From a virus: a stretch of 33,572 bases of DNA. Each line of letters opens with the position of its first letter. The first letter of the stretch is position 1. The notes beneath the pieces were generated by a model. That model did no database searches. It was not told the origin of the DNA and saw nothing but the letters and a program-made list of their open reading frames with translations. The stretch is taken from IMG/VR virus record IMGVR_UViG_3300050014_000314, positions 1 through 33,572 of that record. The stretch is one strand, 5' to 3'. Made by a program: the position numbers and the translations under genes. This document shows positions 22,485 through 33,572 of the stretch, one piece after another.

Positions 22485-22664
22485 TTATTGTTCGAGCGCA
22501 GCATGCGCGATTTCCATACGACGGCGAAACTCTGCGGACAATCCTTGAGCGGCACCCATGACGGTCCCCGGCGCGCTGATCCAGTCAGCGGCACAGACTT
22601 CAAGGGCGGCTCGAAGCCGTTTAATCTCGGCCTCGCGACCAACATCATCCTGAAACTGGCTCAT
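22485..22664 (-). CDS. Small helical protein (59 aa)
   Basis: ATG 22664 (MSQFQDDVGREAEIKRLRAA) is chosen because AGGAAAGGCCCG lies just upstream; a longer frame running into the TnpB element is not expected to be the original start. The product is charged and helical (ALEVCAADWISAPG; FRRRMEIAHAALEQ). Its TAA is part of the CAATAAAGGCC linker. No family recognised. The TnpB element ends about 36 bp upstream of its start. Confidence 0.55.
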   Translation of the reverse strand: MSQFQDDVGREAEIKRLRAALEVCAADWISAPGTVMGAAQGLSAEFRRRMEIAHAALEQ

Positions 22665-22699
22665 TCTGGCGGGCCTTTCCTGATTATTGAAAGCACTCG

Positions 22700-22723
22700 T
22701 GCTTATCCGGTTTAGACACACAG
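22700..22723. repeat. Inverted repeat arm A of the TnpB element
   Basis: 24 bp beginning TGCTTATCCGG and ending GACACACAG. It is 15 bp downstream of the tnpB stop codon (22739) in the minus orientation, and so may be part of the reRNA/omega-RNA 3' end. Confidence 0.8.
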
Positions 22724-22738
22724 ACGCTTTATGTTGCG

Positions 22739-23812
22739 TCATGCGGCTACCCGGCTTTCCACAACTGGACCCACAGCACTGCGGGCGGCAATGGCAAGAA
22801 TGTTCAGCGCGCTATTCACATCGCGGTCGTGGTCTGCACCACATGCCAAACATTGCCATTCCCTCACTCGCAACCCTTTTTGACTTTGTGGGCCACCGCG
22901 TACACCGCACGCGGAACAGGTTACGGTCGTGAATTTTTCATCCACTTCCACATATCCAACCGACTTGTATTTCAGCATGGAACGGAAAGTAGACCAGCCA
23001 GCATCCATCACGGACTTCGCCATCCGCGTCTTGGCTAACTGTTTCGAGTTGACATCCCCGACCGCGATTATCGCGTTCTGATCGGCCAAAGTTGTCGAAA
23101 GCTTGTGTAAAAAATCCTTGCGAGTGTTCTTGATCTTGGCGTGGATGCGTCGCACGCGCTGCTTATTGTGGGCGCGCTGTGCGACGGCAAGCTTGCCCTC
23201 TAAGGCGCGGTAGTGGCGTGGCGCTTCAATCTTTTGGCCATCGCTCGTAACAGCCAATGATTTCAGCCCCAAATCAATGCCGATGATGCCATTACCGTGC
23301 GGGTGGCGTTCGGCGACCTCGACATGGAAACAGACGTACCAGCGACCTAACGCATCCTCGACAAACATTCCGCCCCTGGCATTGTCAGGCAGCGGTCGCC
23401 GCTTGCTGCCGAAGAAACGGTAGCGTTTGCCGAGATACCAGATCGAGTTGCCCTCGATCTGCCGACTCTGCTTTTGAAACGGTATCCAGCCGAGTGCCCG
23501 CCTTACACCAAAGCTGGACCGGAAACGGAGTGAGTGTTTGGCCTTATCGCGGCTCTTGGCGAACTGATCGCAGACCGTGCCGACTGTCTGCTGATGGATG
23601 CCGAGTTCCTTGCCGGTGCCCTTGCAGAGTTTTGCCAGATCAAACGCTGACGGCCAGCGGCGCTTGGGCGCGCCAGCCCGATAGCGGCTCTCAATATCCC
23701 GCTGAAAAGCGTTGCAGTAATTCCAGACCTGATTGCAGGCCACAGCGTGCTGCGTCAGCGTTTTACTGGCGCTGCGGTCTTTCACCCGGTATTTATAGGT
23801 CACGGTCTGCAT
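22739..23812 (-). CDS. tnpB: TnpB-type RNA-guided nuclease (IS200/IS605 OrfB-like), RuvC Glu displaced
   Basis: The 357-residue protein has the TnpB architecture: N-terminal MQTVTYKYRVKD, a WED/REC-like region, RuvC-I with Asp180 (GIDLGLKSLA), a zinc ribbon (Cys299/302/321/324: CSACG, CLACG) and RuvC-III Asp331 (HDRDVNSALNI). In place of the RuvC-II (V/I)xxEDL motif it has IAVGDVNSK, that is Gly252 instead of Glu. A Glu at 292 (VDEKFTT) is 40 residues later, where TnpB subfamilies with a rearranged site place it. TnpB cuts DNA guided by an omega-RNA from the element end. Here it could be active with the displaced Glu or be an inactive, exapted protein. Length is near that of the family (about 380-400 aa). 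Confidence 0.85.
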   Translation of the reverse strand: MQTVTYKYRVKDRSASKTLTQHAVACNQVWNYCNAFQRDIESRYRAGAPKRRWPSAFDLAKLCKGTGKELGIHQQTVGTVCDQFAKSRDKAKHSLRFRSSFGVRRALGWIPFQKQSRQIEGNSIWYLGKRYRFFGSKRRPLPDNARGGMFVEDALGRWYVCFHVEVAERHPHGNGIIGIDLGLKSLAVTSDGQKIEAPRHYRALEGKLAVAQRAHNKQRVRRIHAKIKNTRKDFLHKLSTTLADQNAIIAVGDVNSKQLAKTRMAKSVMDAGWSTFRSMLKYKSVGYVEVDEKFTTVTCSACGVRGGPQSQKGLRVREWQCLACGADHDRDVNSALNILAIAARSAVGPVVESRVAA

Positions 23813-23819
23813 TTTGTGC

Positions 23820-23843
23820 CTGTGTGTCTAAACCGGATAAGCA
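23820..23843. repeat. Inverted repeat arm B of the TnpB element
   Basis: Exact reverse complement of arm A. It lies 7 bp upstream of the tnpB ATG (23812) in the minus orientation, and encodes the last residues and stop codon of the neighbouring small gene. Confidence 0.8.
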
Positions 23844-24025
23844 TGTTTAGCTCTATATTTCCCTTTTCCTGCGTAGGCTAGGGCACACCTATCGGTCATG
23901 CGGGTTATTTCTGCGTCTGTTGGCCAGCACATTTGCTGACCATTGCTCATGGTGGTCCATTCCCACCCGGTGTTACATGGCGGTGAACACCATAGCCCTA
24001 ATATTGTGCAGGCAACTTTTATCAT
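23828..24025 (-). CDS. Small Cys-rich protein whose 3' end lies in the TnpB element arm
   Basis: The 65-residue protein has a hydrophobic N-terminus (MIKVACTILGLWCSPPCNTG) and conserved-looking WEWTTMSNGQQMCWPTDAEI. Its last five residues (HAYPV) and stop are encoded within arm B of the TnpB element. If the element were removed at the arm boundaries, the frame would read KHECFQ and then TAA, so the original C-terminus was probably slightly different. It begins 5 bp after the stop of the upstream gene. Function unknown. Confidence 0.55.
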   Translation of the reverse strand: MIKVACTILGLWCSPPCNTGWEWTTMSNGQQMCWPTDAEITRMTDRCALAYAGKGKYRAKHAYPV

Positions 24026-24397: not shown

Positions 24398-24553
24398 ATG
24401 GAAAAGACGACAGTTTCTTTTAAGCTGCCCAAAGACCTACTTGCCAAGCTCCGGGCGGCTTGTAGAGGGCAATATGCACCAAAACTATCTGATGTGCTTC
24501 GGCGGGGGGTAGAATTGGCTTTGCGGGAATTGGAAAAGAAGGCCGCAAAATGA
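24398..24553 (+). CDS. Ribbon-helix-helix (CopG/Arc-type) regulator, 51 aa
   Basis: The product is MEKTTVSFKLPKDLLAKLRA followed by ACRGQYAPKLSDVLRRGVEL and ALRELEKKAAK. A beta-strand (TTVSFKLP) and two helices is the RHH fold; such proteins dimerise and bind direct or inverted repeats. No SD precedes ATG 24398, consistent with a leaderless message. It overlaps the GIY-YIG gene (ATGA). Auto-regulation of the divergent promoters immediately upstream is likely. Confidence 0.65.
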   Translation: MEKTTVSFKLPKDLLAKLRAACRGQYAPKLSDVLRRGVELALRELEKKAAK

Positions 24554-24927
24554 ACGAGCCTCGATCAATTCTTTATGTCGCCAAGGACAAATCCTTCTGC
24601 AAAATTGGCGTAACGAACAATCCAGAGCGACGTTGCCATGAGTTTTTCTTTCCAAGTTCGCCTCATTTATCTGTCTCGGCGCGGTCAAAAGCCGTGAAAC
24701 TCCTAATCGTAAAGACTTGGAGCCTTGGTCCTGCGGCAATCGTGATTGAGCGATATATAAAAGCTAAATTCAAACACAAGAATATACCGTGCGGCTATGA
24801 GTGGTTCCGCATAGGCCTAGACGAGATAGTGCAAGCGGTAGAAGACGCGATGAGTGGCGTACCAATCCCGACCCTATATCACTGGTTCGGGAAAACGCGG
24901 GTTCCAAAAGAACCCGGCAAGAAATAG
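24550..24927 (+). CDS. GIY-YIG-type nuclease-like protein (T5orf172/MUG113-like)
   Basis: The 125-residue protein begins with ILYVAKDKSFCKIGVTNNPE then RRCHEF, which corresponds to the YxxKxxx-KIGxTxNPxRR core of the GIY-YIG subgroup called T5orf172/MUG113. Later VIERYIKAKFKHKNIPCGYE then WFRI matches the ExxIH...F..ws.EWF part; Glu would be the catalytic acid. It probably cleaves DNA, but in phages such proteins may also be defence or mobility factors. Coupled with the RHH regulator. Confidence 0.65.
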   Translation: MNEPRSILYVAKDKSFCKIGVTNNPERRCHEFFFPSSPHLSVSARSKAVKLLIVKTWSLGPAAIVIERYIKAKFKHKNIPCGYEWFRIGLDEIVQAVEDAMSGVPIPTLYHWFGKTRVPKEPGKK

Positions 24928-26425: not shown

Positions 26426-26435
26426 GGAGCAACCG

Positions 26436-26600
26436 ATGGCTTGCCGACATAAATGGGTTTCACTTTCGCAGTCTATCCGTGACGGTAAGATCGTTGGGGA
26501 ACTTTGCATCTGCGAAAAATGCAAGATGCAGCGCCAAGAAGGCGACTCGTTTTTAACGCCAACTTCCAAGACCGTTCCCGTCTTGGCTGACACGAAATAG
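26436..26600 (+). CDS. 54-aa zinc-ribbon-like protein, copy 1 of a duplicated gene
   Basis: The product is MACRHKWVSLSQSIRDGKIV then GELCICEKCKMQRQEGDSFL and an end LADTK. One CR-H and a CICEKC pair suggest a zinc site. It is about 91% identical in DNA to 27459-27623, with most differences at third codon positions. ATG 26436 has AAGGAG upstream. It is more likely to be the stand-alone original form because its linker is intact. Confidence 0.6.
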   Translation: MACRHKWVSLSQSIRDGKIVGELCICEKCKMQRQEGDSFLTPTSKTVPVLADTK

Positions 26601-26610
26601 GAGGATTTCG

Positions 26611-27407: not shown

Positions 27408-27623
27408 ATGAGCCACCCACGCATCATCTGCTGGTTTTCTTGTGGGACTGCCTCGGCGATGACTTGCCGACATAAATGGGTTTCTCTTTCGCAATCTATT
27501 CGTAACGGCAAGATTGTTGGTGAACTTTGCATCTGCGAAAAATGCAAGATGCAGCGCAAAGAGAGCGACTCGTTTTTAACGCCGACTTCCAAGACTGTTT
27601 CCGTCTTGGCTGACACGAAATAG
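27408..27623 (+). CDS. Fusion: PAPS-reductase-like N-terminal stub plus copy 2 of the 54-aa zinc-ribbon-like gene
   Basis: The frame begins MSHPRIICWFSCGTASA, which closely resembles the first residues of phage PAPS-reductase-family proteins (CWFSCGAASA, the PP-loop region). From 27459 it becomes the second copy of the 54-aa gene (MTCRHKWVSLSQSIRNGKIV ... LADTK). The join falls at the ATG of the copy. The rest of the PAPS reductase is absent, so the first part is a remnant. Whether the product starts at 27408 or at ATG 27459 is open; the latter has no strong SD. The copy itself seems still selected because most changes are synonymous. Confidence 0.6.
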   Translation: MSHPRIICWFSCGTASAMTCRHKWVSLSQSIRNGKIVGELCICEKCKMQRKESDSFLTPTSKTVSVLADTK

Positions 27624-27631
27624 GAACCAGA

Positions 27632-28450
27632 ATGCCGGTTCGCGTAATCACAGGTGACAGCAGGACCGCGCTGCGGGCGCTCGACGCCGCCAGCGTGCAG
27701 TGCTGCGTTACCTCGCCGCCGTACTACTGGCAGCGGGATTATGGCGTTGACGGGCAGATAGGGCTTGAGGTTACGCCCGAGAAATACGTCGAGGAAATCA
27801 TCGCCGTGTTCCAGGACGTAAAGCGGTGCCTATGCGACGATGGCGTGGTGTGGCTCAACCTGGGCGACGCATACTACAGCGGCAACGGCCAACCGAAGGG
27901 CAGCGACCCCCGGAGCCCGTCGCGCGATTGGATGAGAAAGAAGCTTCGGCCACTCGATGTCGGCGGCTGGGATATTCCAAAGAAAAGTCTGCTCGGAGTT
28001 CCTTGGATGGTCGCTCACGCTTTGCAGTCGGACGGCTGGACGATCCGCGCCGAGGTGGTGTGGTGCCGCAAGACGGCATTCGCGGAGCCTTCGGTCAAGG
28101 ACCGGCCGCACCGGCAGCACGAAATCCTATTCCTACTTTCCAAGAGCCGGATGTATTCGTTCAACCGCGCTATGCTGCCCGAGGAAAGTGTGTGGCATAT
28201 CCCGCACGAACGGACTGTGCGTGGGCACAATGCAGCCTACCCGGAAGAACTCGCCCGGCGCTGCATCGTGTCGGGCAGTGATGCCGGCGACATGATCCTC
28301 GATCCGTTTGGTGGCAGTGGAACGACCGGGCTCGTCGCTCAGCGTGAAGGTCGCAACGCAATCTTGGTCGAGCTTAATCCCGAGTACGCTGCTATGTCGG
28401 AACGCCGGATTGGCGTCGAAACCGATATGTTCTCAAAACTTACTGCCTAA
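27632..28450 (+). CDS. Site-specific DNA methyltransferase (N4-C or N6-A, beta class)
   Basis: The 272-residue protein has TSPPYYWQRDYG (catalytic SPPY, residues 28-31) near the N-terminus and DPFGGSGTTG (224-233, SAM-binding FxGxG) near the C-terminus, followed by ILVELNPEY. SPPY before FxGxG is the beta arrangement. Such phage enzymes methylate A-N6 or C-N4 in short sites, protecting phage DNA from restriction; no cognate endonuclease is visible. It is more G+C-rich than adjacent small genes, suggesting a different origin. Target site unknown. Confidence 0.85.
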   Translation: MPVRVITGDSRTALRALDAASVQCCVTSPPYYWQRDYGVDGQIGLEVTPEKYVEEIIAVFQDVKRCLCDDGVVWLNLGDAYYSGNGQPKGSDPRSPSRDWMRKKLRPLDVGGWDIPKKSLLGVPWMVAHALQSDGWTIRAEVVWCRKTAFAEPSVKDRPHRQHEILFLLSKSRMYSFNRAMLPEESVWHIPHERTVRGHNAAYPEELARRCIVSGSDAGDMILDPFGGSGTTGLVAQREGRNAILVELNPEYAAMSERRIGVETDMFSKLTA

Positions 28451-28465
28451 AAGGGGAGCGCAGCG

Positions 28466-28621
28466 ATGATCGATCCAGAACTCGTCTATACAAACGCCTG
28501 CGTCGCGCTAAGGAGGGCCGAAAGTGACTATGCGGCATCCGAGACAAAATTGATTGAGGCACGGAGGGCGGTTCAGGCGGCTAAGGTTGTAACATATTAC
28601 TATAAGCAACTACACAAATAG
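28466..28621 (+). CDS. Small helical protein (51 aa)
   Basis: ATG 28466 after AAAAGGGGAGCGCAGCG. The product is MIDPELVYTNACVALRRAES then DYAASETKLIEARRAVQAAK and VVTYYYKQLHK, a long amphipathic helix. No family recognised. Confidence 0.5.
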   Translation: MIDPELVYTNACVALRRAESDYAASETKLIEARRAVQAAKVVTYYYKQLHK

Positions 28622-28730
28622 GAGCTAAACCTCGGAACCGGCTCTGAAAGCGCACCCGGCCTTGGTCAGTACAATACTCCGTCGCCCGCTAGAAATTAAG
28701 CGACGGCCATCTAAAAAAGGGAGCGCAGCG
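28622..28730 (+). other. 109-bp gap with partial linker and hairpin
   Basis: It begins with the familiar TAGGAGCTAAAC but no ATG follows, so it may be the remnant of a deleted small gene. A hairpin CCGTCGC (28679-28685) / GCGACGG (28700-28706) precedes the linker AAAAGGGAGCGCAGCG of the next gene. A TTG-initiated extension of the next gene through here is unlikely. Confidence 0.4.
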
Positions 28731-28988
28731 ATGGTCAAAATTGCAACTGGTTTTTTTGTCGGATGTATGATGACAGCAATCACCGTCGCATGGGCAGAGT
28801 CCGTTAAGGACCAGCCATGTACGCACGATGGTTCAAGCTGCATGACAACAATCCCACCGGAAGTTGTCCCACAGATGCTGTTCAATGAAGTTGGCGTCGT
28901 TATGGCCGCCAGATCACAACAAGGGAAAGCCGTAACCATTCAGGCCGACGAAGATGGCTATGTTATCTGTAGCCCAAAATCAAAATAG
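28731..28988 (+). CDS. Secreted/periplasmic small protein (85 aa)
   Basis: ATG 28731, right after AAAAGGGAGCGCAGCG, is chosen over an upstream frame extension. Residues 1-22 (MVKIATGFFVGCMMTAITVA) form a signal peptide or anchor, then KDQPCTHDGSSCMTTIPPEV and two Cys that may bridge, ending VICSPKSK. Function unknown. Confidence 0.5.
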   Translation: MVKIATGFFVGCMMTAITVAWAESVKDQPCTHDGSSCMTTIPPEVVPQMLFNEVGVVMAARSQQGKAVTIQADEDGYVICSPKSK

Positions 28989-28998
28989 GAGCGCGGCG

Positions 28999-29193
28999 AT
29001 GGGCCTAACGCAGCACGAAATAATAATGTTGGGCGCGCTGCAAACCATTATTGCCCAAACCGAGCCGGATGCTATCCCACATAGAGACTATGGGCATCTT
29101 AGAAAAGACATCTATGATTGCGCAACGGCGGCAATATCCGAGTTTACCGAAAATGAGCGCGTAGAGGCAATGGTGGCACAGCCTCGGCACTGA
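28999..29193 (+). CDS. Small helical protein (64 aa), last gene of rightward operon
   Basis: ATG 28999 after TAGGAGCGCGGCG. The product is MGLTQHEIIMLGALQTIIAQ then TEPDAIPHRDYGHLRKDIYD and an acidic C-terminus. Helix-rich, no family recognised. It is followed 30 bp later by the convergent leftward operon, without an obvious terminator. Confidence 0.5.
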   Translation: MGLTQHEIIMLGALQTIIAQTEPDAIPHRDYGHLRKDIYDCATAAISEFTENERVEAMVAQPRH

Positions 29194-33314: not shown

Positions 33315-33572
33315 TTAGACCTCCGTCGCTTCGACGGCGCATTCAGTCGGCTTGCCGTCTTTGAGCATGTAGAGAACATCCGGCTTAATACCGTCGCGCC
33401 CGACGATACCAGCCCATGCCGCGATGATTTTGTATTCATTGTCGCGCTCGACTAGGAACAGCGCACAGCCATTAGCTCCAGAAACGCGGCCTTCGTATCC
33501 AGAAGCCATAGCAACGGCTTCTTTGCCCGTGTTGGTCGCGGCGCTCTGGTCGCCCGTGTTGGTCGCGGCGCT
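33315..33572 (-). CDS. DUF7666-like repeat protein, C-terminal part
   Basis: The frame is open to the window edge, so the N-terminus is outside (the ATG at 33509 is probably internal). The edge encodes tandem SAATNTGD(x) units (9 aa, 27 bp), followed by SGYEGRVSGANGCALFLVER and YKIIAAWAGIVGRDGIKPDV then LYMLKDGKPTE. This repeat plus domain combination is one I recall as DUF7666-type phage proteins. Repeats like these form a beta-solenoid. The role is unknown; it is near the beginning of the leftward operon. Confidence 0.65.
   Translation of the reverse strand, partial: SAATNTGDQSAATNTGKEAVAMASGYEGRVSGANGCALFLVERDNEYKIIAAWAGIVGRDGIKPDVLYMLKDGKPTECAVEATEV
33525..33572 (-). repeat. Tandem 27-bp repeat encoding SAATNTGDx
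   Basis: Two identical 21-bp stretches (33525-33545 and 33552-33572) are 27 bp apart and the second meets the window edge. The array probably continues outside. It is coding (solenoid-type 9-residue unit), not a CRISPR. Confidence 0.75.

Follow-up and report, generated by a model that had tools for sequence, protein, structure and literature searches.

We describe a 1148-bp unit in a 33,572-nucleotide viral sequence (IMG/VR record IMGVR_UViG_3300050014_000314; the whole stretch is referred to as the window) that consists of a tnpB gene framed by terminal inverted repeats (TIRs). Very probably, this unit is a phage mini-transposon with IS1595-type ends that carries tnpB and its guide RNA (omegaRNA), is mobilized in trans, and uses one of its repeats a second time as the end of that RNA. 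The anatomy and mobility of the unit are well supported: its boundaries, the target duplications of its relatives, transposase elements with matching ends, covariation of an RNA pseudoknot and copies holding only the guide RNA are all evident in the sequences compared.

The two 24-bp arms at 22700-22723 (TGCTTATCCGGTTTAGACACACAG) and 23820-23843 are complementary at 24 of 24 positions and the open reading frame (ORF) between them encodes TnpB by Pfam, as a preliminary description of this DNA had claimed. Also in agreement with that description, the unit contains tnpB alone, with no ORF inside it for TnpA (HUH Y1 transposase), none for the serine recombinase TnpA that is the hallmark of IS607, and no other sizeable ORF. 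The core of the repeat, GTCTAAACCGGATAAGC, occurs only twice in the window with three mismatches allowed, and none of 100 shuffles gave two occurrences. Comparison with a homologue fixed the extent of the unit: the alignment with a relative of 84% identity (L004) spans 22698-23843 and breaks off at the arms. The unit was therefore delimited as 22698-23845, its ends reaching 2 bp beyond the 24-bp arms on each side.

A search for the 24-mer, recommended as a check in the preliminary description, found exact copies in 62 further viral stretches, the majority of which lack tnpB; in most of the 62 a second, slightly different inverted copy lies 260-2100 bp away, with tnpB absent. Members of this family end in CATGCTTATCCGGTT…AACCGGATAAGCATG and are 235-2302 bp long. 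The flanks just outside the CA and TG dinucleotides are identical 8-mers in 50 of 84 distinct units, against 8/8 identity in 7 of 6972 cross-pairs between units used as a control, and the signal is maximal at shift 0; on this sequence evidence, the identical flanks are target-site duplications. Cargo with Pfam support includes NADAR, Dam, Mom and radical-SAM proteins, while C5-methyltransferase-like and ASCH-like proteins were called by eye with no Pfam match, alongside many unknown genes. Cargo ORFs often start at a common point after the conserved left end, and some run into the right repeat and end in TQDVGLCV. Occurrence of the arms apart from tnpB had been named in advance as an observation that would count against a tnpB unit; the arms do frame many other cargoes, but this rules out only a tnpB-specific element. 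In bacterial genomes, the pattern was found in eight stretches only, mostly alphaproteobacterial, and six of the eight belong to units whose duplications are perfect. The call of a unit in L013 was discarded as spurious because its left ‘repeat’ is inside the gene.

Single-gene cassettes with IS1595-type ends make up a large family in phages, with examples at L041 5954-6664, L048 127-720, L054 10534-11101, L057, L067, L072 893-1659 and L084 471-1016. Their cargo has links with the modification of DNA or with anti-restriction (C5 and Dam methyltransferases, Mom, NADAR, ASCH-like, PAPS-reductase-like and radical-SAM proteins), and the conserved ends are fused to it, giving the start-codon region and sometimes the stop. 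The same cargo with different perfect 8-bp duplications recurs on two contigs or in two places (L029 11810-12174 and L038 7073-7437; L048 and L077; L054 and L066), which suggests that whole units move between phages. Adjacent units at L070 (1153-1878 and 2327-2685) share the 8-mer GAAGGATT at their inner flanks and differ at their outer flanks, a pattern that suggests recombination or nested events. Back-to-back cassettes in an alphaproteobacterial metagenome-assembled genome (L118 2899-3294 and 3303-3806) are bordered on all three sides by a single 8-bp sequence, CGTTGATC.

The preliminary description had called the mobilizing enzyme unknown, a statement that no longer holds: the product encoded by two ~2-kb family members contains DDE_Tnp_IS1595 (7e-34) and Zn_ribbon_IS1595 domains. 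Searching with this transposase returned 26 viral loci. Boundaries were set for 14 transposase units that share the ends of the family, and ten of the 14 have perfect 8-bp duplications. The CATGCTTATCCGGTT core is common to the window unit and the full elements L040/L090, L091, L102, L103 and L114. The transposase is encoded in 10 of the 20 virus records tested, all of which hold units or transposase elements. Joining the flanks across transposase elements restores a D12 methyltransferase in L091 and an Rv2179c-like RNase in L113. Because the full elements have the same ends and duplications, co-occur with units in virus records and leave restored genes when their flanks are joined, the tnpB unit is most likely mobilized in trans by a transposase of the IS1595 family. 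A further locus, L078 428-1680, joins the 5' part of an IS1595 transposase element, its transposase cut, to the terminal ~100 bp of a tnpB unit and looks like a chimera of the two.

Pfam matches of the tnpB product are OrfB_IS605 (4e-18) and Cas12f1-like_TNB (1.4e-17), and its RuvC half matches ISDra2 TnpB (8bf8, 3e-35); with both RuvC and a zinc ribbon present, it has the make-up of an IS200/IS605 TnpB. The canonical site of the RuvC-II glutamate is occupied by Gly252, and E292 lies six residues ahead of the first zinc-finger cysteine pair, a placement defined as the ‘alternative position’ in PMC10711439. D180, E292 and D331 are unchanged across a nine-member TnpB alignment, completing a D-E-D triad, and nuclease activity is predicted for the TnpB of the window. 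A tree built from 43 TnpBs places the group with CCGGATA ends in one clade (99/98) nested within IS605-type TnpBs, and units with both repeats are scattered inside this clade. The simplest reading would be a single capture by IS1595-type ends, after which the left repeat was lost several times; the RNA end persists in the relatives that have lost it.

The omegaRNA of an IS200/IS605 TnpB is expected to overlap the 3' end of tnpB and to finish at the element end. We examined 44 relatives, placing the last hairpin by stem strength and then reading the terminal motif. The 4-base loop is complementary to the four terminal bases in 44/44 relatives (176/176 cells), with double-sided compensatory changes at all four pseudoknot pairs; when the partners were slid as a control, whole-structure pairing dropped to 31-42%. 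The 19-member subset closest to the window, in which 16 tails were placed automatically, is 100% paired and has double changes at three of the four pairs. IS605-type relatives terminate in the pseudoknot followed by AA. In the window's clade, the terminus is the IS1595 repeat itself, CCGGATA-N-pseudoknot-G. The GCAC strand is kept in 9/9 units with both repeats as opposed to 5/13 relatives without the left repeat (Fisher p 0.006), in which the terminus varies and covaries. These comparisons support a 3' repeat (arm A of the preliminary description) that doubles as the omegaRNA 3' end. A non-autonomous unit and an RNA role for the arms had been offered as alternatives; both find support together, the one from family ends and duplications, the other from covariation of the pseudoknot. 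The covariation also points to an omegaRNA that would end at the element boundary and take its guide from the flank. As the pseudoknot ends at the last bases of the repeat, the guide would begin at the first base outside the transposon. No exact match to the predicted 20-base guide was found in viral_contigs.

Some units have retained the guide RNA without the nuclease. One, at L014:166-433, has both repeats and an omegaRNA with tnpB absent, and its hairpin differs from that of a neighbouring tnpB copy by one compensated pair. A 117-kb contig of a related phage (3300050119_000104) contains at least ten guide-RNA-only units, of 235-256 bp, together with three tnpB units and an IS1595 transposase. 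Five of these guide-only units have perfect 8-bp duplications (8/8), each of different sequence, and two of the five (14637 and 15472) are identical in unit sequence, as would be expected after recent transposition. Copies near 29.7 and 32.0 kb are also present in an independent assembly (contig G231, 99.96-100% identity); since this represents the same phage, it confirms the assembly and yields no empty site. One guide-only unit lies directly against a tnpB unit and would therefore take the left end of this tnpB unit as its guide. A sigma-70 scan of two guide-only units gave no promoter above threshold, though TTGACA is visible by eye.

From these observations, we infer transposition in trans, RNA processing, a transposon-associated motif (TAM), cleavage and a benefit of cleavage. 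An IS1595-type DDE transposase from full-length elements in related phages would recognize the repeats in trans, and insertion of the unit would create an 8-bp target duplication. The 3' repeat would be transcribed together with the 3' end of tnpB, and its GCAC would pair with the GUGC loop. This pseudoknot would close the scaffold (predicted terminus ...CCGGAUAAGCACG) exactly at the transposon end, so that the adjoining DNA, ~16-20 nt of flank, would become the guide. TnpB could then cut copies of the site without the insertion, resulting in homing, retention or exclusion of unmarked sister phages, and the guide-only units of the related phage may supply extra guides in trans. An extension of this mechanism, quite possible if short of probable, is a self-programming multi-guide phage nuclease, in which one TnpB would be served by many guide-only mini-transposons scattered by the IS1595 transposase, each insertion removing its own target and making a guide against insertion-free genomes.

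Several observations weigh against this explanation. The window unit has no 8-bp target duplication (0/8 match; flanks AAAGCACT / TTTAGCTC, + strand) and no IS1595 transposase is encoded in the window. Duplications are also absent from eight of the nine TIR-framed tnpB units, the window included, and are significantly rarer in these than in other units; the ninth (L011/L012) has an 8/8 duplication. The missing duplications could possibly be due to recombination between units via their shared ends. A search for empty sites, proposed in the preliminary description as a means of fixing the ends, found none for the window unit, as the relative reached through a 91-aa neighbour gene (L130) aligns in that gene only. 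No empty site was found among the other fetched loci either; for Bradyrhizobium (L116), the only long match elsewhere (genome G177) covers the left flank and enters a same-type end at the same site. About 14 of the 44 pseudoknot tails were chosen by eye, mostly outside the window's clade, and there was no match to an Rfam family. Finally, the guide-only units show no motif in common, on inspection by eye, in the DNA upstream of their duplicated sites. New insertion sites may therefore lack a TAM, which in ordinary IS605 elements is ensured by the choice of target.

The absence from the window record of both a duplication and a transposase, and complete loss of the left repeat in several relatives, could indicate that the window copy is a relic, which arrived as an IS1595-type unit and has since recombined or decayed and become immobile. 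We consider this possible but doubtful, because both ends are intact (24/24), the reading frame is uninterrupted and encodes the catalytic residues, and a transposase could act in trans. Alternatively, the arms may be only the DNA ends of an IS1595-type unit, with a functionless loop pairing and tnpB as an ordinary passenger. Other cargo units do use the same ends with no RNA, and there is no independent copy of the window record, but this alternative is improbable given that the pseudoknot covaries over the 44 relatives, among them some that have no TIRs but retain the CCGGATA..CG terminus. Moreover, the 3' repeat of tnpB units has CACG in place of the CATG found in most other units, a difference that turns a G-U into a G-C pair and makes the pairing Watson-Crick. 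Less probable still is membership of the IS605 group with mobilization by a TnpA in trans, in which case the resemblance to IS1595 ends would be due to convergence or chance. TnpB relatives outside the clade do end in the IS605 manner (TTAA/TCAA) and most TIR-framed tnpB units lack duplications; against this stand the match of both ends to IS1595-type ends over 15-24 bp, the duplication at L011/L012, the guide-only units with the same ends and perfect duplications, and the apparent chimera at L078. The repeat is found again and again in the spaces between phage genes, and cargo ORFs lie between its ATG and its stop codons, as might be the case for a regulatory motif of promoter or start-associated type. 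This candidate was rejected on account of the 8-bp duplications and has a negligible probability: the copies are inverted pairs with matched 8-bp flanks that are different at every site, and the same repeat forms the ends of transposase elements. A trans-mobilized IS1595-type unit whose repeat doubles as an RNA end is thus our preferred explanation.

The unit shares with mobile insertion cassettes (MICs), such as those of qnrD and the Bacillus cereus group (PMC3913671, PMC6542083), the arrangement of insertion sequence ends around a passenger gene with no transposase, and MICs are trans-mobilized by a related insertion sequence. It differs from them in its IS1595-type ends, its phage hosts and the many different single-gene cargoes of its family, and in a passenger that encodes an RNA-guided nuclease with a guide RNA that makes use of the insertion sequence end. 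With the IS1595 family, whose full elements encode DDE_Tnp_IS1595 and a zinc ribbon, it has in common the terminal inverted repeats and, among its relatives, 8-bp duplications; because it has no transposase of its own, carries tnpB instead and has a repeat predicted to act as an omegaRNA end, it can be classed there only as a derivative. Stand-alone omegaRNAs have been reported for IscB, with many guide-RNA loci apart from the nuclease gene; those described here are of TnpB type, reside in a phage and each form a mini-transposon bounded by IS1595-type ends, in several cases with an 8-bp duplication. Fanzors within eukaryotic inverted-repeat DNA transposons are a distant parallel. IS200/IS605 tnpB elements (IS1341-like) and ISDra2 TnpB (PDB 8bf8) share the TnpB, an omegaRNA overlapping the tnpB 3' end and a flank-derived guide, whereas the window unit is without TnpA, has terminal inverted repeats (24/24) that are normally absent from that group, replaces the pseudoknot-AA end with CCGGATA-pseudoknot-G, and has its RuvC-II glutamate in the alternative position. 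Alternative-glutamate TnpBs and Fanzors (PMC10711439) have this residue likewise six positions before the first zinc-finger cysteine pair, but the RuvC-I motif of the window protein is D-L-G, not D-P-G, and it is phage-borne in an IS1595 unit. Mycobacteriophage mobile elements (MPMEs; PMC4351075, PMC3029335) are also very small inverted-repeat elements of phage genomes; they have other ends and cargo and no link to IS1595 or TnpB. No precedent for TnpB with IS1595 or for phage inverted-repeat cassettes was found in the open-licence literature, outside which many subscription papers lie.

The features of the unit and the adjoining genes are listed in Table 1. The 65-aa ORF that stops in the left repeat may have been truncated by insertion of the unit; no relative showing an intact form was found. 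Elsewhere in the window, 24550-24927, near the tnpB unit, encodes a 125-aa protein matching the endonuclease PHROG phrog_681 (1.6e-6), and a 169-bp direct repeat of 92% identity occurs at 26434-26602 and 27457-27625 (spacing 1023 bp). A start-like motif, AAAAGGGGAGCGCAGCGATG, recurs at 28449-28471, 28714-28736 and 28982-29004 with a period of ~266 bp, these copies being possibly the ribosome sites of successive small genes. Tandem copies of GCCCGTGTTGGTCGCGGCGCT with a 27-bp period at 33525-33572 are interrupted by the end of the record.

Table 1. Positions in the window of the tnpB unit, its predicted RNA parts and adjoining genes
Feature	Position	Strand	Detail or basis
Non-autonomous IS1595-type unit (MIC) with tnpB, 1148 bp	22698..23845	-	CATGCTTATCC...CCGGATAAGCACG in tnpB sense
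5' (left) TIR, CATG type	23820..23845	-	
3' (right) TIR, CACG end; predicted omegaRNA 3' end	22698..22723	-	
tnpB, 357 aa; D180, relocated Glu E292, D331; zinc ribbon	22739..23812	-	Pfam and alignment
Predicted omegaRNA 3' hairpin GCCCGCA-GUGC-UGUGGGU, overlapping tnpB 3' coding end	22769..22786	-	
Hairpin loop GUGC, pseudoknot strand 1	22776..22779	-	
GCAC at transposon end (last bases of repeat), pseudoknot strand 2	22699..22702	-	
Predicted guide AGTGCTTTCAATAATCAGGA, first bases beyond unit	22678..22697	-	inferred
65-aa ORF, end enters left repeat and stops there	23828..24025	-	
59-aa gene, next downstream of tnpB, start 33 bp outside unit	22485..22664	-	

What is new here is an MIC with IS1595-type ends, a TnpB passenger, a repeat that appears to double as the omegaRNA 3' end, and scattered guide-only copies in a related phage. 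One short sequence with a dual role links a DDE inverted-repeat transposon family to an RNA-guided nuclease of the IS605 world. The unit illustrates how a guide-RNA system can part from its original transposase and travel with another, as has long been supposed to have happened when CRISPR-Cas12 and Fanzors arose. The wider family indicates that phage accessory genes such as methyltransferases, Mom and NADAR travel as IS1595-type cassettes. Finally, the scattered guide-only units make the proposal that a transposon writes new guides for a nuclease directly testable.
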